A DNA stretch of 36,306 nt from Saccoglossus kowalevskii (taxonomy: Eukaryota > Hemichordata > Enteropneusta > Harrimaniidae). Below the pieces are notes generated by a model. It was not told the origin of the DNA, made no database searches, and saw only the letters and a list, made by a program, of their open reading frames with translations. The DNA is taken from positions 24,735-61,040 of the forward strand of contig NW_003128868.1 of NCBI RefSeq assembly GCF_000003605.2. Reading direction: 5' to 3'. A program made the translations under genes and the position numbers. Below, in pieces: positions 7,756 to 36,089 of this stretch; within the stretch, counting starts at the first letter, position 1, and the number at the start of each line of letters is the position of its first letter.

Positions 7756-10700
7756 CTGTGCGAAAGATGCACCAACAATAATTAGCGTTGAAAAATGCGA
7801 AAATATAAAAGTCAACCTAGTAATTCGCATATCAAAGCCTAAAATTGTGATTGACAAGCTGTTACTGGGTATTTAAAATTCCATTGCAGTTCAATAAATA
7901 TATAGGTTAAAGGCCTCTGTTTATCAACTCGACTATTTATAATGAGGCCAACATTTTATTGTAATAGTCTGTATTACCGTTTTTTTTTTTACATATTTTC
8001 CTATGCGGAATATTTCTGCATATATTCTGCAAATATTTCTATATTAATATATGGACACGTAAGCTGCGTTCAGACTACACCAAGTTTATAATAACATTGA
8101 GATTTGGAAAGAAATCCTGAAAAACATTGGAACACTGAAGCCTGGACTAATGTCGTAATGACACATCATTCTCAGTGTTGTAATCACTAAAAGACCACTT
8201 TATTTTAGATAGTCCTCCATTTCATGGATTGGTAAGAGGTTTTCTGCAGATCATACATTGTGGGAATGTAACTTAGTAAAAAATACGCGAGCTGGTATGA
8301 TTGTCCGATTTTATTTCAAGTTAGTCAGTGGCAGTTTTTTTTTTAAAGTTTGCTTCACAGTCTTATAACAATCACAATGATCTCAATAATATAACGTAAT
8401 ATTCGAAATGGACGCGTGTAACATTTGTTTTAGGAATTTATAACCGGCGGCTGCACCTCAGCAGTCTTACGGAAATGGCCGGATGCAAGAAAGACCATTG
8501 TTAACTTTTTTCCAATTAGTTGCTTAGATAAATATGTTTCAATATAGATACTTTTAAAAGCTTATCTCGTAATTATCAACATCCTCGAGTCTCCCGAAAT
8601 TCAAATCCAATTCCGACGGAACGTAGTCGTAGGGGTAAATACTGCAAAATACTTGTTTTCGCTTGGAATTAATTTCTGCTATTTTCGCTGAAGAATTGAT
8701 TCAGTGAAAAGAAATCCAACGATGATACCGTTTTTTCCTATATTTTACATTCAACTCGTCAAAAATCAGTAAAAATAAATTTCATACAAAACACTCAAAA
8801 CGTCTTTTCAGCGAAAATTAATTCCATATAAAATAAAGTATTTAACATTTTGAAGCGCCCCGACAGTAGTCACGAAGCGTGCGTTCGAAATTCGTGTAAA
8901 CAAATTAACTGCCAGTATACACACGTTGCATACGTCGCACGGGACCTACGTCGAACATGACGCGGTTCGGCGACTGTGATGACTTGAAGTTGACAGTCGT
9001 ATTAAGTATTTGTCCCTAAAGATATGACATATTTGTGAATGACTGAAACTCAAAAGTCGCAGCGCGCGTACAAATTTTGCGTGAACGTCGCGTGAGACGC
9101 AGAGCGGAACGGGACAACTGATGTTGACGTCATCAACAAGGATCACGGAAGATTTAAAAAAAAAAAGGTTAGCTACTATATTCTTGTAACACGCATTTGG
9201 CTTAAAAGGTTAAACTTCTACAATATACGTATTTACCTTGAAGTGTTTGGCTGCTACTTTAAGATGATACAATTTGGGTAGAATATTGCAATCTGGTAGT
9301 TTAAGCGTATCGCCATCTAGATAAACACCCGGTGAGTTGGATAAGAAATTATTCAGCTTTCGGACTTCAGTGAGCAAGGCATTTTTGAGATGTACCTCGG
9401 CTGACGCGTCCCTGTTTTTTAACACTCTGCAAGGTAACGAACGAACGATAAAGAGGTAGGTATAATGATAAGGGATGACGCCAAAAGATCGATGTCGGAT
9501 AAACAACTTATTTGCTTTAGTTTGGGGGTGGGGGTGGGGGGTTGACCTCAAAAAGTGTCTATCCTACAAAAACGATTTTATTTTTCAATGAAGTCAAAAA
9601 AACCTTGGAGTATTTGTAGTTCGTTTTTTTTTCTAACCAATCATAGTCAAAAATAACAGAAAATGAAAAAAACAAACATCCAAGACGAGAAATAGTTTGG
9701 TCCGAGTGTAAATATGTGCGTGAAATGAGGTCAATTTCAGGGCATGGACCTAGATCATGCGCAGAACCCAGAAAGTAGTTTGCGCATGCGTATATTCCGC
9801 TTCATTATTACAACCAACTGCTATGCCATATTCCTGTCCGATTATCAATTTGTATTTAATGGTGAATGTGGTCTGACGCCATGATCAACATTTATCAATT
9901 AAGTTTCAGTGGGGGGTGGGGGGTTTTGGGAAAAAACTAAAAGAATTAAGTTTTTTATCCGACATCGATTTTTTGACGTCGTCCCTAAGGAATGGTGCAA
10001 AGCGCCATTACGTCTGGTGACGTCACATTGCATCATCGCGATTACGTCACTCCATGTTACCTATAAGAATGCCGTGCCTGCAGGCTAAAGCATACAAGGG
10101 CTGTTTACACACAAATACAAATACTAAAATAAAATACATTTATCAATTGTTTGGCAAGCTCAACACAAACAATTATTGACCGCCTGTATACTTACGCTGC
10201 AAATTTGTGAAATAACCTATCCCCAGCATTGTCTGCCGCCACATTGTCCGCCCTCAACTTTGGTTCTGGGAAAGTGGTTTCTAGATATTCCGCTATGGCC
10301 GTCGAGTCGTCCATCCTACCGCCATCGTGTGTGAGCACCGGTACTTTTCCCGCAGGGCTTATATCTAGAAAACCACGTGGTTTGATTTTCATATTGACTG
10401 GTATGAGTTTGTATTCTAAGCCTTTTAGTTGTAGTATCATCTGTATACGATGTGAGAATGGACAATCTCCAAGGCTTTTGCCGTCAGTGCCCGCCTACAG
10501 AAAAAGAAAAACACATTGTGAGTATGACAACAATGTCCTTGGACCCACAACGCGGCTCAAAATAATGAATCCTTACACGACTTGTAGACAATTTCGCCGA
10601 AACAAGTATATTGTGAATATACCATGAATATATAGTCTGACATGGTTTTCCTTACATAGTTGGACGACTTTATGCTATGCCACAAACTTCAAGTAAACTC

Positions 10701-26178: not shown

Positions 26179-27266
26179 CTGAAATAAATCATAAATTCCA
26201 CAATAAGTGTAACTACAAAGACATGAAAGCATTCGCTCAATTTGATAGTACAAAATCCTGACAAATAAGTTGTGTGCAAAACATACCCCTTAAACCATTT
26301 TAGGCAATATTACTTTAGATAGTTCGCTGCTATTTAGATTTCACACCAAATTTTCATAATATTTTTCACAGTATTTTGGCGGGTTATATTCTTTAAGAAT
26401 TCGCAATGAATATATGGTCACCATGCTACTTTTGACATAGGGTGAACCATGGGAGTACTTATGGTTGTCATAAAATATTTAAAAAAAAATAGATTAAAAA
26501 TGTTCTTCATTACATTAAATCATATAGTAACCCAGAGTGTACTAAATGTCACATATTTTTAATTATAAATCTTTGTTTGTGGATCAATATAATCCGAGGG
26601 ATAAATATTTCCATTTTGAAATAGAAACATTGTAATGAAATTCTGACAACAATGGTAGCAAACTAGCAGAACAATAAAGTACTTACGAATACTTTTTCTG
26701 CGACTTAATCTTTGGTGACGATTTAATTTTGATATCGATGTGGTATTTGTCAGGTGTGGGAAAACAGATGGTATAAAATGCTTGTTTTACCTGCAATAAA
26801 ATAAGTTAAAAAATGAAGGAATGAAAAACTTGAATTACAATTTGTGTATAAAATTTTGGAACAAAATTAGCCTGCCAGTGAATATATGTATCTTTTCAGA
26901 CAAATGAAGTACAGGATGAAGCAAATTATGAAATTGCACTTATTTTTTTTTTATTGATCAGTTTTGGAAATTAACCAAGATTAATAAGTCATTCCAGAAA
27001 ATTGAAACAAATACAGAACTATAAAAGGTGTTCATTTGGGATAACTTACCAGATAAAAAATGCTTTGAACAGACATAAGTGTGGTTTGACTTCGGTGACC
27101 AAACCTTAGACTTGTCCACAGATCCGTCACCATTAATCTTTGCCCTTTTGATGGCTTGAAGCCACCTTTTTCTCCTATCAGACCCAACTGGAATAATGTA
27201 AAAGTTAAGGTTAGGACATTTCGATTTAGTGTTAGTGCATTTGGGAACACAGCAACTTTTTGGCAT
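25776..27266 (-). CDS. THAP zinc-finger protein gene, possibly frameshifted
   Basis: Exons are 27050-27266, 26687-26790 and 25776-26178. The first encodes an N-terminal THAP (C2CH) DNA-binding domain: CCVPKC at 5-10, the invariant Trp at 35, and CSKHF with Cys66 and His69. THAP is a sequence-specific zinc-finger domain related to P-element transposase and is found both in transcription factors and in transposons. The third exon encodes a short Lys/Ser-rich stretch and then six Ser/Pro repeats. Exons 2 and 3 join in phase, but exon 1 ends in phase 1 while exon 2 is fully open only in phase 0, unless a weaker AG ten bases downstream is used. In another frame, exon 2 reads FIPSVFPHL, which looks like the conserved AVPTIF-type box that closes THAP domains. 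This suggests a one-base frameshift or alternative splicing. Confidence 0.6.
25807..26098. repeat. 48-bp tandem repeat, six copies, inside the THAP gene's last exon
   Basis: The plus-strand unit is GATGGCGACGGTGGAATTGA then TGTTCTTGATACTGGGTGTGATGGTGAT. Copies differ at few positions (ATT or AGT; CTT or GTT). The period is a multiple of three, so all repeat frames are preserved. Five of the six frames are free of stops through the unit, which explains the stacked open frames on both strands. Confidence 0.95.
26179..26686. other. Intron 2 of the THAP-like gene
   Basis: A 508-bp AT-rich interval between donor ATTC|GTAAGT and acceptor TTTCAG|GTG on the minus strand. No other feature was seen. 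Confidence 0.5.
26687..26790 (-). CDS. THAP gene exon 2 (frame uncertain)
   Basis: Bounded by acceptor TTATTGCAG|GTAAAA and donor ATTC|GTAAGT. One frame is open from end to end (VKQAFYTICFPTPDKYH and onward) and joins exon 3 in phase. A second frame, interrupted near its 5' end by TAA, reads KHFIPSVFPHLTNTTS, which fits the end of a THAP domain better. Both cannot be used at once. Confidence 0.5.
27050..27266 (-). CDS. THAP exon 1 (C2CH zinc finger)
   Basis: The start codon directly follows an acceptor, TTTATCAG|A-ATG, and an upstream donor CAG|GTAAGT at 27356/27355 fits a 5' leader intron of about 88 bp. The exon encodes MPKSCCVPKCTNTK through RRKRWLQAIKRAK and HTYVCSKHFLS, then ends TCT-G|GTAAGT in phase 1. 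Two THAP zinc cysteines, the conserved Trp and the CxxH pair are all present; only the C-terminal part of the domain lies beyond the donor. Confidence 0.85.
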
Positions 27267-27557
27267 TCTGATAAATCACAATGACACTAGTGAGCCAAGT
27301 ATGATGTGGACTTCACCAGAGGATTATGCTGACTGACAATGTAATATCTACTTACCTGTAAAATCGAAACAGGTGATTCCATTCTTGACGATGAAATGTA
27401 ATTTTCGATGAAATTAATATACAAGAAATGTCAAAAGTTTTAAAACTTGACTTGTTTTGATTAATTCTCAAAAATATTTTTATCGCCATTCATTTACGCC
27501 ATTCATTTACAAATACATATATTTGTGATCGAAATACAACAACATTTTTGCTCCTGG

Positions 27558-27803: not shown

Positions 27804-28744
27804 TTAGATATCCATTGTTTTTTTTTTTTTAATTGTATATATTTACTTGGTTTTAATTTAAGTAAAAATAGTACAAGTACATGTAATCAAAAGTCGTATA
27901 TGATTTACATGATGGTCACTAGGATAATTAATTTCTAATTTAAAAGGATTAAAATATTTATCCTCCAGTCATTTTTATACTAGAAAGTAATTAAACTATT
28001 TAATAAAATTGTTCAAAAATGCTACTAGAAATATTTAATACATAGTCTATTAAGTGATGTCGGCATACAGTTGTTTACCGAAATATTTAATATATATATA
28101 TATATTATAATAGTCTATTACGTTGAACTGTACTTCGAAACGTACGACCTGGTCGAAACTCTTGCCGAAACGTACGTCTACCGCGTCGAGGCAGCAAATC
28201 TCGGCACGTGTTAGGTTTTTATCAAGACCGAGGTCGAGTTTTTTTCCCGGCACGTGCCGACTGGGTCCCGAGTCTCGGCACGTGCGAGATATCTAACGTG
28301 AACGCCACCATGTACGTAATATTTTGGAAGCACTATTGTCAGTTGTATAATATAATATTCTAATATAAACATTAAATACTACTAAGCTTGCCTATGAATA
28401 CGTCACACGTTTTACGTATGGTCCATTTCAACACGTGCGACAAGCTGACAAATTTGTTTGTTTGCTTGTTGAAACCATCTCGTCTTCTTTAAATCACCCC
28501 GCGAGCAGAGTCCATGACACGAATGTGTTTATACGTCCATGGTCCATCCAAGCTGCATTGCATCCACATAAAACGAAGGGATATATGATCCATACATGGA
28601 GATGACTATATGTTATATTCCAAGTAGTGTATATTAAACCAAAGACACTAGTGTCTTTGATTAAACACACAACTCACAACATTTTTAATGATTTAACACT
28701 ATGATTCACACAGTGTGGCAGATGTTTTGTTCATTTACCCACCT
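27804..28744. other. Spacer with a 20-bp perfect palindrome
   Basis: CAAAGACACTAGTGTCTTTG at 28640-28659 is perfectly self-complementary. The rest, including an AT dinucleotide run near 28090, has no recognised gene. Confidence 0.55.
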
Positions 28745-28990
28745 TAGTGCCAAACACCGTACCTCCCTCAAAAGGCGACGGCACGAAATTTTGCTTGAGG
28801 GGCGAGATGTGAAATTTTGACCCTCTGAAACGCTATTTCCTGCACTTTGAAGGGCAAAATTTGCTGACACAAAGGATTTCAGCTTGATTTGGGGGAGGGG
28901 GGTCGAGGCCCCAAACACTTTTTTCGGATGGGCGACCGCCCCCTCTGCAGACCGGTGCCGCCGCACCTGTGCCTGGAGGTTGATTAACAC
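28745..28990. repeat. Probable transposon-derived GC-rich remnant
   Basis: This block differs sharply in composition from its AT-rich flanks. Read on the minus strand, it contains GGCCTCGACCCCCCTCCCCC and GAGGGTCAAAATTTCACATC, the type of C-rich and AAAATTT-rich tail that I associate with widely dispersed animal DNA-transposon remnants. I cannot assign it to a named family from memory. The frames open across it on both strands have no recognisable product. Confidence 0.4.
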
Positions 28991-29222
28991 CTGTGCAAGT
29001 GGACGTGAACGGCCAGATGACCTAGAATACACATCTAACACATTTCAGTTTCGGTCAGTGTTCAAGTGCATGTTTGTGGCTGGAATGTGTTTTCATCAAG
29101 CGTGCATATACAACTCATATACAATGTACCCATAATCCCATTCGGTGCTTGTCGTATTATCAATATGTATAATAGGTTGACCGTGACTTGTAAACCAGTA
29201 ACTGTCAAAATGCGACAACTTA

Positions 29223-29252
29223 TTACATGTAGGTACATGTAGATACATGTAG
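29223..29252. repeat. Short tandem repeat (TACATGTAG, three copies)
   Basis: Three imperfect copies of a 10-11-bp unit around TACATGTAG; each unit contains the palindrome TACATGTA. Confidence 0.8.
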
Positions 29253-31647: not shown

Positions 31648-31653
31648 TATAAA
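31648..31653 (+). promoter_or_regulatory. Candidate TATA box of the SAP-UBZ4 gene
   Basis: TATAAA within GGGAATATAAAGGG. It lies about 120 bp upstream of the putative 5' leader donor, which leaves room for a leader exon starting near 31675-31685. Confidence 0.4.
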
Positions 31654-31679
31654 GGGTGAATCTTCCGACGGAATTTTTA

Positions 31680-31771
31680 TCGTGATCGCGTTCTCAGTAC
31701 GTATGCATCCAAACTCTCATCACTGCAAAGAACGAATTCTTTTCTGATACCAAAGACCGAAACTTCTACCG
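31680..31771 (+). other. Putative non-coding 5' leader exon
   Basis: Ends TCTACCG|GTGAGT, a strong donor. It pairs with acceptor TTTTTTTTTTCAG|AA at 31887, two bases before the start codon at 31890. If this intron is removed, the ATG at 31860 lies within it and translation begins at 31890. The exon's 5' end is only estimated from the TATA-like sequence. Confidence 0.45.
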
Positions 31772-31889: not shown

Positions 31890-32136
31890 ATGACGACAAC
31901 AGTCCTGTACAACGATTTTTATATACGACAGCTAAAAGACATGCTACGTAAACGCAAACTTTCCATGAAAGGGAGAAAGTGTGAATTAATCGAGAGATTA
32001 CAATTATCCGATCTCAGTACATCGGAACTGAAAATGAAACTAAGGAGAGAAGGACTAAATGAGGTTGGGTCCAAGACGGAATTGATAAGAAAAGTTCAGA
32101 AACTGCATAGCAAAGGCAAGGAGATCCAAGGTATAG
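31890..32136 (+). CDS. Exon 1: two SAP-like motifs
   Basis: Start codon two bases after a strong pyrimidine-tract acceptor. Encodes MTTTVLYNDFYIRQLKDMLR and onward to GKEIQGI, then donor ATA-G|GTGAGT in phase 1. Each motif shows the SAP pattern of two amphipathic helices joined by a G-x-K/R turn. The second motif has the classic LRREGLNEVGSKTELIRKV layout. Confidence 0.88.
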
Positions 32137-34703
32137 GTGAGTTCAAAGTCTGAGTAGAATAATTCTACTTCGCATACCCCAAACGTCAGACAGGTAATCT
32201 CATTTTGCGAAATGTATACCATAACAGTTTGTTTATGTTAAAAATACATAGAATTCACCACCACCATACTCACACCATTACCCACGATTTTAGTCAAACT
32301 GTTTCCCAAATTCACAGCTATATTTGATGGCTACAGTGCATATTGTACCGCAACACGGGAAGGTTTGTAATTATCAACGGGACTGCTATAATGCACCGTA
32401 CCGTAACATGGGACGATTTTTTTTATTATCAACGGGAATGATATAATGTGACCTACCGTAACATTGGACGATTTTGTTATTATTATTAAATAAGTTACGA
32501 ATAAGCTAGTCATACATTCGTTGTGCATTTATTAACATTAGATATGGACACATATCGGATTGACGAACCTGTTTTGGAGACTGAACGTATTTTTTTTACC
32601 AGGGCGGCCCGGATCGTTGTGACACCACTTACGTCCAAACCACACTAAAATCTAGACGGGATGACACTAAACGCATAGCGGCGTGTCGATCCACACAGAG
32701 ATTCAAAGGGATTCATTTGTGCATTATTTTAATATTGTCCCACAATACGACTTTTCGGTACCGAAGCCATGCAAGTTGAATGTCCAAACAGCGTTATAGA
32801 ATATCATTCCATTAGTTGGCAATGAATAGCAATGATGTTATGCAAAACGACAATATGTCATATTTGTCAATAATGCTAATGATTTTTTTTTTATCTAATT
32901 TCAGATACAGTTAAAGATGCTCATAGGAAGCGTGGTAATCCATGGATGGTACTGCCACCAATGAATTGTAATGGATGTGGTTGCCAGGTTACCAATAATG
33001 ATGCGATGTCTCATCTCGACAGTTGTTGGTTTACAAATGATGGCGAACCCAATGTATATTTACTACATGCTAAGAGTGCTGACTGGGCTGGTAAGTTACG
33101 TAATCTTTCAAATGACATCGCGATCTAGCATAAAACGTACCCGGTGAATGCAATATTTTAAATTTGTCTGCGTTCTTTTACTTACAGAGAAGTTTGAATT
33201 GTATATGGCAGTCCCGCTTAATGGATCGTTTAAAGATGTTGATCTATCACTTCGGTTCACCTGGTTGCAGTGTTGCTATGGTCACCTAAGTGGCATGGAA
33301 ATATATTCATCGAATGCATTCAATAATTTGAAGGCAGGTTTTGCAATTACGCATATATATTTTCTTTCAATGATTCCACATTAGAAATTATTTGAACGAT
33401 CTCAACTCAACTTCTTGTGTGATCCGAATAAATCGTCTCTACAGTCTATAACCAATTATGTTCTACGTTTTTCGAGATACATAAACAATGTATACTGAGA
33501 TGAAATAAGATGAAATGCACTTGACTGTGTTCTGGTCGAATGCGACAGAATGGTATTTCTATAACGATAATGTATTCCCATCACAGGAAACCGACAAAGA
33601 CCCCGATCCGATCGTAACACTGAATTCCAGATACTACAATGTTGAAGGGCTGAGTGTCTGTGAGAATGAGAGACCAATGGAAACCCTGTTACTCGAGTAT
33701 ATACAAGACGGCATACAAATACTGTATGAATATGACGCTGGTTTCACCACATCAATCCTTATTCATAACTTTGGTGAGTTATTTCTACTCTCATGTATAT
33801 TTTGTGAGAAGGGTTTCTGGACACATCGACATTATTTCATTCCGTTGTGACCAAACTCTCACCACATTAGAAAATTATGAGATACTATACATGCACTAGT
33901 AAAATTAAAAGACTTTATTTGTTTTGACTGAAATTGTACACACTGTTACCGAAAATAGCTCTGAAACAATAGCGAAATCAATGGCGACCCCTTTATTAAA
34001 CACAATATACTGTATGTCACAGAAGAGGTTGCCAAGATAAACGCCCGCACATAAGCCGCCATTCCAGCTTCATAGTACAATTGAGACAATACTAATAAAA
34101 CAAAACTGTTTTATGAAAAACCACATTCACACTTTTGGTATTGGTCGTTATGATTTTTCATCTAACAAATATTGTTGAGTGTCCTGCAAACACAACCATT
34201 TTATTATGAGACATCGAAAACAATATTAAAAATTATTATATTTTATATATATTATAATTACATAATTACATTTTCATCTTTAAACCCACTTATTACAAGT
34301 TTAATGTAACCGTCGTGTCCATAGTGAGTGGCAGACGCTAGCATATTACCCAATAAATTCTCAGTACTCATTCATTTCAATCAATATTTTGTTTGCAGGC
34401 AAAAGGTGTTTGAAGCGCCCTTTACGCGAGGAAACAACCACAACGAAAATACTGATGCCCGTGATGAGAAATGAGATGCTCACTATACCTTGCGAGAAAT
34501 GTTACAAAAAGTCAACGTTATTTTTCATGGATGATGAACCATATGACAGCGAAGATGACGTCTCCGACAGTGACTTTGGAATGAAGTTCTTCTGTTCAGA
34601 TAGATGTGCACTGTCTCTTGGATTTCGCCGCCATACCCTGAAACCGTTTCTCAATTCTCCTAGATCAGGCAGTTGTGATTATAGAGGACTCAATTATTTC
34701 TAA
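31890..34703 (+). CDS. SAP-SAP-UBZ4-pRiA4b ORF-3-like fusion protein, five coding exons
   Basis: Exons 31890-32136, 32905-33090, 33188-33337, 33510-33773 and 34399-34703 join with every intron in phase 1, giving 1152 bp and 383 residues. Residues 10-38 and 41-72 look like two SAP motifs (IRQLKDMLRKRKLS..GRKCELIERL and SELKMKLRREGLN..GSKTELIRKV), which bind DNA and chromatin. Residues 104-123 form a perfect CX2CX11HX3C UBZ4 finger ending HLDSC, as in RAD18, SNM1A and FAN1, which bind ubiquitin at DNA damage. Residues 146-383 resemble prokaryotic plasmid pRiA4b ORF-3 / IS1096 passenger TnpR-like proteins: SLRFTWLQCCYGHLSGMEI (165-183), ILYEYDAGFTT (265-275), Cys pairs at 314/317 and 348/352, and LNSPRSGSCDYRG (367-379). 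The function of that family is unknown. SAP plus UBZ4 suggests a nuclear, DNA-damage or chromatin role. The domain calls are from memory and need a profile search. Confidence 0.82.
32346..32490 (+). repeat. 53-55-bp tandem repeat in intron 1 (about 2.6 copies)
   Basis: Units begin at about 32346, 32399 and 32454 with TACCGTAACATGGGACGATT and contain TTATTATCAACGGGAATGAT followed by ATAATG. The third copy is truncated. Confidence 0.8.
32905..33090 (+). CDS. Exon 2: UBZ4 zinc finger
   Basis: Acceptor AATTTCAG|ATAC and donor GCT-G|GTAAGT. The finger is CNGCGCQVTNNDAMSHLDSC: ligands Cys104, Cys107, His119 and Cys123, with Asp121 at the position used for ubiquitin contact in RAD18. An additional Cys109 lies inside the loop. 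After it comes WFTNDGEPNVYLLHAKSADW, leading into the next domain. Confidence 0.88.
33188..33337 (+). CDS. Exon 3: start of the pRiA4b ORF-3-like domain
   Basis: Acceptor TTACTTACAG|AGAAG restores the phase-1 codon as Glu145. Encodes KFELYMAVPLNGSF, then the W-x2-CC-x2-H-L-S motif within TWLQCCYGHLSG. The donor GCA-G|GTTTTG is weak but keeps the phase; the open frame continues past it to a stop near 33384, giving an alternative, shorter product if the intron is retained. Confidence 0.78.
33510..33773 (+). CDS. Exon 4: core of the pRiA4b ORF-3-like domain
   Basis: The acceptor is taken as AAATAAG|AT because it is the only AG that avoids the in-frame TAA just upstream and also fits phase 1; it has almost no pyrimidine tract, so this is the weakest junction. 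Encodes DEMHLTVFWSNATEWYF and onward, through LLEYIQDGIQILYEYDAGF to ILIHNF, ending at the strong donor TTT-G|GTGAGT. Confidence 0.78.
33774..34398. other. Intron 4 of the SAP-UBZ4 gene
   Basis: AT-rich, 625 bp, with no recognised repeat or gene inside. The frames that run into it from exon 4 are readthrough. Confidence 0.6.
34399..34703 (+). CDS. Exon 5: zinc-binding C terminus and stop
   Basis: Acceptor TTTGTTTGCAG|GCAAAAG, phase 1. Encodes GKRCLKRPLREE and onward to a Cys-x2-Cys pair (PCEKC), an acidic insert (DSEDDVSDSD), a second pair (CSDRC), then LGFRRHTLKPFLNSPRSGSC and DYRGLNYF and a TAA stop. The two pairs look like one zinc site. The final NSPRxGxCxYxG string is the part most like prokaryotic relatives. 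Confidence 0.88.
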
Positions 34704-34850
34704 TTTGAATATCCAATCCCCACATTGTGATGTCATATTTTGTTCAGTTATTACCCTGAATATTCCTTGATTTGTTGTTGTCTACATTTACTTTTATTAT
34801 ATTATTATCAGCTTGGTGTCGACTGTCATTTTTAGGGTAATATCCAACGA

Positions 34851-34856
34851 ATAAAT
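34851..34856 (+). promoter_or_regulatory. Candidate polyadenylation signal of the SAP-UBZ4 gene
   Basis: AATAAA, 148 bp after the stop codon; it is the first canonical hexamer on this strand downstream of the gene. Confidence 0.5.
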
Positions 34857-34859
34857 TAT

Positions 34860-36089
34860 ATTTCCATAATAAACAAATGTTAAACAGTATTCGTGGTTTG
34901 TGGTTTGCTGCGCCCTCTAAAGATGGTCCGCACCATCGATAATCTTGCCGACAAATGGCACAACTCCAACAAATATACAAAGCCAATCAATTGACACAGT
35001 AGATGTACAATACTGTTAGCATGGGGTTGGTCCTATCACGGTTACTAGTAACCGTAGTCCTATGTAAATTAGGTGTAGCGCTGAGACGACTCGATACTGT
35101 CGACAACTGGCGAGTTTGTGATCACAGTCCATTGTTGAGATACATCATCCCTGAATGGAGCTGGAAAGACACTAAATGCAATTGCACACGATTTGTGCGA
35201 CTGTCATCTTGTATATAATAAAACATGCGACGAGTTAAACTCTGGGACGATTTGTTCAAAGAAAAAATAAAGCTTTTTGTCATACACTGGTTTTCTGATT
35301 AGTACAAGTGCTTGTTTTATGTCATTTTAACAATAAACAACAACATTTAACCAGATTGAAAAACAAAAGTTGTACGACATGTACAATATTATCAGACTAC
35401 AAATCAACAAAAATCCATCTTGTTATAAACAAACTGTTCTACAGCAATAAGGATATTATCATTATGCACGGATTGTAGATTAACAATGAGCTTAAGTATT
35501 TTTTTTTCATCAAACCATTACATTTTGGCTGTGAGAAGAAATTGCACTCTTTTGCTTGCCGAATTATTTACATTTTCGGAAATGGATTTAGCATGACTGA
35601 ATTTTGACTTATATATTTATTCAGGTATATGCAAGATATTTGAAAACAGAATAGTTAACTGCCCGACCATCTTGAATAAGATGGTTTCAAAATTACATCT
35701 AATAAGATTTGATTCCCCATTCACATTTCATGATTGTGATGTGCCATCATAACTTAAATGGAACCCAGTAAGTCACGGAATAAGAACATATGCATACTAT
35801 GAAATGATGAATTATTTCTTTTTGTAAAACAAAAAAGTTCCCGACTTTGCCAGTCTATATTGGAGGGGTCCATGCAATATATTGAATATATACTTCAATA
35901 CGTAATATACTGACAAGTTGCATTGGGACTAGAAAAGCAAATTTTAACAAGCCATGCATGGCACAGTCCCCGTTAGTTATTCAATTTAAGATATATAGTT
36001 TTGTTCATAGTAATATAGCTGGAATATAACCATGTCAGGAATATGATTTTTTAACATTAAAATGATTGACATTTGTATCTGATCGTCAA
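34860..36089. other. Spacer downstream of the SAP-UBZ4 gene
   Basis: Holds one open frame at 35003-35218 that ends in an overlapping AATAAA; it is discussed in the findings but not accepted as a gene. The rest is AT-rich without a recognised feature. Confidence 0.5.

Follow-up and report, generated by a model that had tools for sequence, protein, structure and literature searches.

A Saccoglossus kowalevskii gene family that probably joins a SAP pair to a prokaryotic pRiA4b ORF-3-type protein

The window analysed here, a 36,306-nucleotide stretch of the genome of the hemichordate Saccoglossus kowalevskii (contig NW_003128868.1, positions 24,735 to 61,040), holds on its plus strand a five-exon gene that appears to couple two SAP motifs to a protein module of prokaryotic type. 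Coding exon 1 (31890..32136, residues 1-82) carries both SAP motifs and exon 2 (32905..33090, residues 83-144) a zinc finger; exon 3 (33188..33333, residues 145-193), followed by a GC-AG intron, supplies the part of the core with W-x2-CC-x2-H, and exon 4 (33587..33773, residues 194-255) the part with YEYDAGFTT. Exon 5 (34399..34703, residues 256-356, stop TAA) carries RN, a CX2C...FFCxxxC arrangement that is probably a zinc site, and NSPRSGSCDYRG. The exons join in a single frame with intron phases 1,1,0,1, which confirms the coordinates and the conflict-free joining claimed in an earlier note on this DNA; the product has 356 residues rather than the 383 given there, so that the residue ranges of that note are off. 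In the product, the SAP motifs lie at residues ~7-38 and 39-71 (about 31908-32003 and 32004-32102), the finger at 104-123 (32967..33026) and the prokaryotic-type module at ~100-353, with the C-terminal zinc stretch and NSPR tail at 279-352 (34467..34688). The motifs C104-X2-C107-X11-H119-X3-C123, W170-x2-CC-x2-HLS, Y240-E-YDAGFTT and NSPRSGSCDYRG (341-352) are read directly in the product, as the same note had called them (CX2CX11HX3C, W-x2-CC-x2-HLS, YEYD and the NSPR tail).

All four coding introns end in CAG and three begin with GT. For the third, the GC donor (AAG/gcaggt) was the sole in-frame junction of known type among three tried, and GT occupies the matching position in the four copies of the gene on contigs C993 and C4588. 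Judged by motif alone, TATAAA at 31648..31653 is a likely core promoter, and AATAAA at 34850..34855, with a second one at 34868, resembles a polyadenylation signal. Between them, a probable 5' untranslated leader (31654..31771, start not fixed) ends at a GTGAGT donor (31772), and an acceptor CAG stops two bases 5' of the ATG; equivalent acceptor sites are found in other copies (acag/atATG in C993a, C4588a and C4588b, ttag/atATG in C999). Taken together, the TATAAA, the leader donor, the acceptor before the ATG and the AATAAA make this a plausible gene.

Beyond the SAP pair, the window protein matches no Pfam family above cut-off, enzyme families included, and nothing informative about the module came from scans of PHROGs, PADLOC and NCBIfam. 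We find the link to prokaryotes through intermediates: a pattern for the prokaryotic motif YEYDFGST led to a viral contig protein and from there to four plasmid matches, of which two bear the annotation 'plasmid pRiA4b ORF-3 family protein'. A scan of 84,980 species genomes then picked out 534 stretches and confirmed 507 relatives; the best 80 of these, joined by L105 and L106, form the set of 82 used here. These loci were selected with a tail motif partly derived from animal sequences. A profile of 84 prokaryotic rows, with no animal sequence among them, matches the window protein once, from the finger to the end, at 99.7 bits, where 2000 shuffles reach 8.2 bits at most; separate core and tail profiles score 50.7 and 72.9 bits, compared to 10.9 and 5.8 for the best of 1000 shuffles. 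Profile-profile alignment with hhalign of animal and prokaryotic sequences gives a probability of 98.9% with four prokaryotic rows and 99.6% (E 7.8e-25) with 42.

The conserved positions tell the same story. Conservation reaches 95% or more in 35 columns of the 84 prokaryotic rows; all six animal copies retain 24 of these, and no Cys or His among the 35 is lost (C104, C107, H119, C173, C174, H177, C287, C290, C321 and C348 are among the kept columns). Prokaryotic finger-type pRiA4b ORF-3 proteins, e.g., WP_162485629.1 of Deinococcus deserti, are collinear with the animal protein from the finger to NSPRxGxCxYxG, whereas the animal copies are interrupted by introns, have more residues in the loop before YxYD and sit on a very long branch. 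The Pfam family PF07929 (pRiA4b ORF-3) is matched at E<=0.001 by 17 of 42 prokaryotic members, and the first relative found scores 19.8 against a cut-off of 26.6. The central proposal of the earlier note, that the rest of the protein is of pRiA4b ORF-3 type, is thus upheld by way of intermediates, and we consider it very probable that the module is a strongly diverged member of this widespread prokaryotic family. In the collections searched, which were prokaryotic, plasmid and viral, the module type turned up elsewhere in bacteria, archaea and giant viruses alone; a title-level literature search, with subscription papers outside its reach, found no paper on an animal pRiA4b-type protein.

The two SAP motifs are confirmed. 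Pfam SAP (PF02037) matches two stretches of the window protein at E 5.3e-11 (42.3 bits against a curated cut-off of 23.9), as anticipated from the two SAP-like motifs first seen at the front, and the THO1 SAP structure is matched at E 0.003 by the protein and 4e-5 by the profile; no SAP was found in the prokaryotic relatives scanned with Pfam. The finger is different in this respect, as CX2CX11HX3-4[CH] stands at the same place before the core in 81 of the 82 prokaryotic relatives and is exactly CX2CX11HX3C in 32 of them; the sole exception, L097, may have a wrong start. Because a like-spaced finger occupies the same place in these relatives, only the SAP pair of exon 1 looks added, and finger and core are probably, and most simply, one inherited unit; their union is argued from the matching spacing and position and not from a finger profile score. 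The three-part fusion proposed earlier is therefore probably not what is present here, as the finger spacing belongs to the prokaryotic-type module; of the UBZ4 finger named in that proposal, the CX2CX11HX3C ligands stand and the status of a separate eukaryotic module is not supported.

An AlphaFold2 model of a bacterial relative, L085 (Anaerolineales; mean predicted local distance difference test score, pLDDT, 89.7), gives six Foldseek matches in the PDB at E<=0.001, with the next at 0.14. Two of these are chains of MM3350 of Methanosarcina mazei (best 2i1s, E 2e-6), an entry titled protein of unknown function, aligned over 154-158 columns of the 235-residue model; the next best are chains of small nuclear RNA (snRNA) promoter complexes, 7xur_B, 8iue_3, 7zx8_b and 9fso_Z (E 1e-5 to 9e-5, probability 1.00). 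SNAPC3 (SNAP50) was checked to be present in entries 7xur, 8iue and 7zx8, and 9fso_Z is presumably SNAPC3 as judged from its complex. In addition, pairwise alignment with SNAPC3 pairs the C-terminal zinc stretch FFC...C...H.L..FL..P. The accessible text of the structural papers describes SNAPC3 and SNAPC4 as contacting both grooves of the promoter element (PMC9758055, PMC9652321), places a C4 zinc site towards the C terminus of SNAPC3 (C354, C357, C380, C383; PMC9758055) along with another site that is not a CX2CX11H finger (C221, H313, C317, H319; PMC9758055), and presents SNAP50 as without known homologous structure (PMC9652321). Two Klosneuvirinae giant-virus proteins share the L085 fold, A0A3G4ZQD0 of Barrevirus (227 columns, E 2.5e-15) and A0A3G5ACM7 of Hyperionvirus (255 columns, E 5.6e-13), in a comparison of predicted folds, not sequences. 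The SNAPC3-like fold modelled for the bacterial relative suggests a DNA-binding scaffold, and is the most interesting new lead of this analysis.

The exons that follow the SAP exon encode a complete protein of the finger, pRiA4b-ORF3 (MM3350-like), C-terminal zinc and NSPRxGxCxYxG type, and our best explanation, to which we assign a probability of roughly 0.55, is an animal gene family in which a SAP pair has been joined to such a protein and the product acts as a DNA-tethered scaffold. A prokaryotic-type gene would have reached an ancestor, either directly from a prokaryote or with a giant virus as carrier; introns would then have been gained and a SAP exon placed 5' of the acquired gene. The SAP pair would tether the protein to DNA or chromatin, and the finger, together with a zinc-stabilised SNAP50-like core, may form a scaffold that touches DNA and partner proteins rather than a nuclease or recombinase. 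We hold the scaffold role, considered by itself, as tentative, slightly short of an even chance.

Several results weigh against this explanation. PF07929 has no match at E<=10 in the window protein and none in the six-frame genome, so that the connection runs through prokaryotic relatives; even in ten prokaryotic proteins, five score over the PF07929 cut-off, one falls just short and four have no match. Some animal copies depart from the YDFG stretch and from the Ser and Phe that follow CC-x-H, which hints at a changed function. Taken by itself, the finger scores no higher with the prokaryotic finger profile than shuffled sequences do. The modelled fold is that of a bacterial relative and not of the window protein, and hhalign connects SNAPC3 to neither prokaryotic nor animal sequences (probabilities of 2.6 and 0.6; best of 60 column-shuffled SNAPC3 controls, 3.8 and 6.2, with only two SNAPC3 sequences used). 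Moreover, the fold match does not give a function, because in the accessible text of PMC9652321 the SNAP50 zinc fingers are structural and SNAP50 alone does not bind DNA. Finally, the trees, which were proposed as a check on horizontal transfer, unite the animal copies in one clade (100/100) with a stem of ~3 changes per column, and no prokaryotic group is a clear neighbour of that clade; a grouping with three insert-bearing Chloroflexota members is neither shown nor rejected (approximately unbiased test, p 0.197).

A different account takes the finger for a genuine eukaryotic UBZ4 that replaced, or was joined to, the bacterial core and sends the protein to ubiquitin-marked chromatin at damaged DNA; UBZ4 domains are described, in the accessible part of PMC4267625, as CCHC fingers that occur in DNA-repair proteins. 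The window finger has the exact CX2CX11HX3C spacing, and an Asp at H+2 (HLDxC) is present in 6/6 animal copies versus 2/35 prokaryotic HX3C fingers and is shared with RAD18 and WRNIP1. The animal finger profile finds eight PDB matches, of which the top one is a consensus C2H2 finger (E 0.022) and three are UBZ chains (WRNIP1 once, RAD18 twice), and the shuffle-level score with the prokaryotic finger profile also points this way. However, those UBZ matches are all non-significant (E 0.08-0.25), no UBZ family is among the Pfam matches of the window protein, and the finger, unlike those of RAD18 and WRNIP1, is part of a module also present in prokaryotes, where 81/82 relatives have its counterpart. 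The resemblance to UBZ4 is not specific to animals either, since the prokaryotic profile weakly matches RAD18 (E 0.025) and the bacterial model overlays the RAD18 UBZ with template modelling (TM) scores by target of 0.68 and 0.75, though at E 1.0 and 1.3. We regard this account as unlikely; ubiquitin binding by the window finger is in itself possible. A finger with UBZ4 spacing in bacteria and archaea is a caution for motif-based annotation.

The gene belongs to a family that is apparently working, as far as its sequences indicate. Five further copies with matching exon layout are found in the host assembly (572 Mb, 4830 contigs), an oppositely oriented pair on C993, two on C4588 and one on C999, so that the family occupies four contigs with sizes up to 1.26 Mb. 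The C4588 copies, on a short contig, are ~97% identical to each other and are possibly an assembly duplicate; the C993b copy lacks the SAP exon, with no SAP match anywhere in its locus. The ratio of nonsynonymous to synonymous divergence (dN/dS, by NG86) is 0.16-0.31 across 15 paralog pairs, with dS up to ~2.4 in the oldest pairs, where it is saturated and rough, and the copies thus appear to diverge under purifying selection, as in an old, selected family rather than a recent insertion. At least three decayed copies are also present, near 19.7 kb on C999, at L009 8819-9220 and in the window at 29105-29239, the last an exon 2 remnant of another family copy on the minus strand; a possible exon 3 remnant of the same lost copy, ISLRFMWMQCSL, lies at 28549..28584 on the minus strand and is weak alone (E 0.19). 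This decayed copy (28549-29239) lies near the intact gene and opposite to it in orientation.

These remnants might suggest that the gene is a non-functional relic or a transposon-borne open reading frame, as might an open frame with MPKSCCVPKCTNTKSKCPNL on the minus strand at 26961-27275, ~4.6 kb upstream of the gene, which is THAP-domain-like by eye; THAP-type domains are also found in transposases. The dN/dS values speak against this, and DNA similarity of the window copy to the others is confined to exons, with no flanking DNA in common (E<=1e-5, >=80 bases; transposases were not searched for), which makes the relic or transposon account very improbable. The accessible text of PMC3942029 reports pRiA4-type genes carried on some bacterial transposons, and a mobile-element origin of the family is neither shown nor excluded, with carriage by a transposon disfavoured by the unshared flanks.

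We likewise consider it most improbable, and slightly more so, that the family branched off from the SNAPC3 gene of the animal itself. The fold match of the bacterial relative and the paired C-terminal zinc stretch are what this would predict, but PF12251 (SNAPC3) has no match in the window protein at E<=10, and its four genome matches all lie on contig C166, where a separate, ordinary SNAPC3 is encoded (human SNAPC3, E 3.9e-78). This separate gene and profile comparisons at shuffle level, as opposed to E 7.8e-25 with prokaryotes, lead us to reject a derivation from SNAPC3. Bacterial contamination or an assembly chimera, which the bacterial look of the C-terminal part could suggest, is rejected as next to impossible in view of the spliceosomal introns between the five coding exons, the spread of copies over four contigs, the long animal stem, and a bacterial query (one was used) that finds only this family's exons in the genome, at 33-43% identity, and no bacterial-grade copy.

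For the family joining a SAP pair to a prokaryotic-type protein, possible routes of origin are transfer from a prokaryote, transfer via a giant virus, or old inheritance with loss. Among prokaryotes the family has a patchy distribution (in the phylum of L085, 21 of 301 genomes carry it). A prokaryotic query found four plasmid records, no phage records and three viral contigs, to which a further search with the tail pattern added none; the animal query gave no plasmid match and one phage match at E=9, and the animal profile none in viral contigs. A bolder proposal, which we consider doubtful, is that eukaryotic SNAPC3 descends from the same ancestor as the finger-type pRiA4b ORF-3 proteins, and that the module was recruited a second time, later and with a SAP tether of its own, in the window family, which would serve as a lineage-specific promoter- or chromatin-binding factor; if true, a core subunit of the snRNA-promoter complex would have prokaryotic or viral roots. 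The SNAPC3 fold match makes the origin of this basal transcription factor testable, and a protein type widespread in prokaryotes and of unknown function, under selection in an animal and equipped with a DNA-binding tether, would offer a genetic handle on the family.

Further observations concern the relatives and the paralogs. At 44 loci of prokaryotic relatives, 28 genes lie close by on the same strand; the 10 of them that were scanned show no shared partner. In Bergeyella zoohelcum (L081 108-6330), a relative sits within a type II CRISPR operon ordered cas9, relative, cas1, cas2, with gaps of ~12 and ~7 bases and two 45-base repeats 3' of the operon; the same order is read in Capnocytophaga cynodegmi (L092 42-5928), and the relative may be an unrecognised accessory Cas gene. 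Three members from the phylum of L085 (L124, L125 and L126) carry some 100 or more inserted residues in the loop where animal proteins are longer. Long prokaryotic relatives include L047 3989-5881, with Rho_N, and L020 3992-6196 and L032 3995-5992, with DUF6930 and DUF7309. In three paralogs, L009, L010 and L011, a short shared open frame 5' of exon 1 (MIKVQKYTT..., MIKIQKETI... and MIKVQKYTT...) could represent one more coding exon at the N-terminal end; the leader of the window gene, when inspected, has no such frame, and an apparent N-terminal extension of L068 looks spurious by eye. Near-identical tandem repeats of ~130 bases each lie beside the C993a copy (L009 7865-8512). Elsewhere in the window, on the minus strand at 9213-10494, are frames that by eye resemble exons of a chloride intracellular channel (CLIC) gene.

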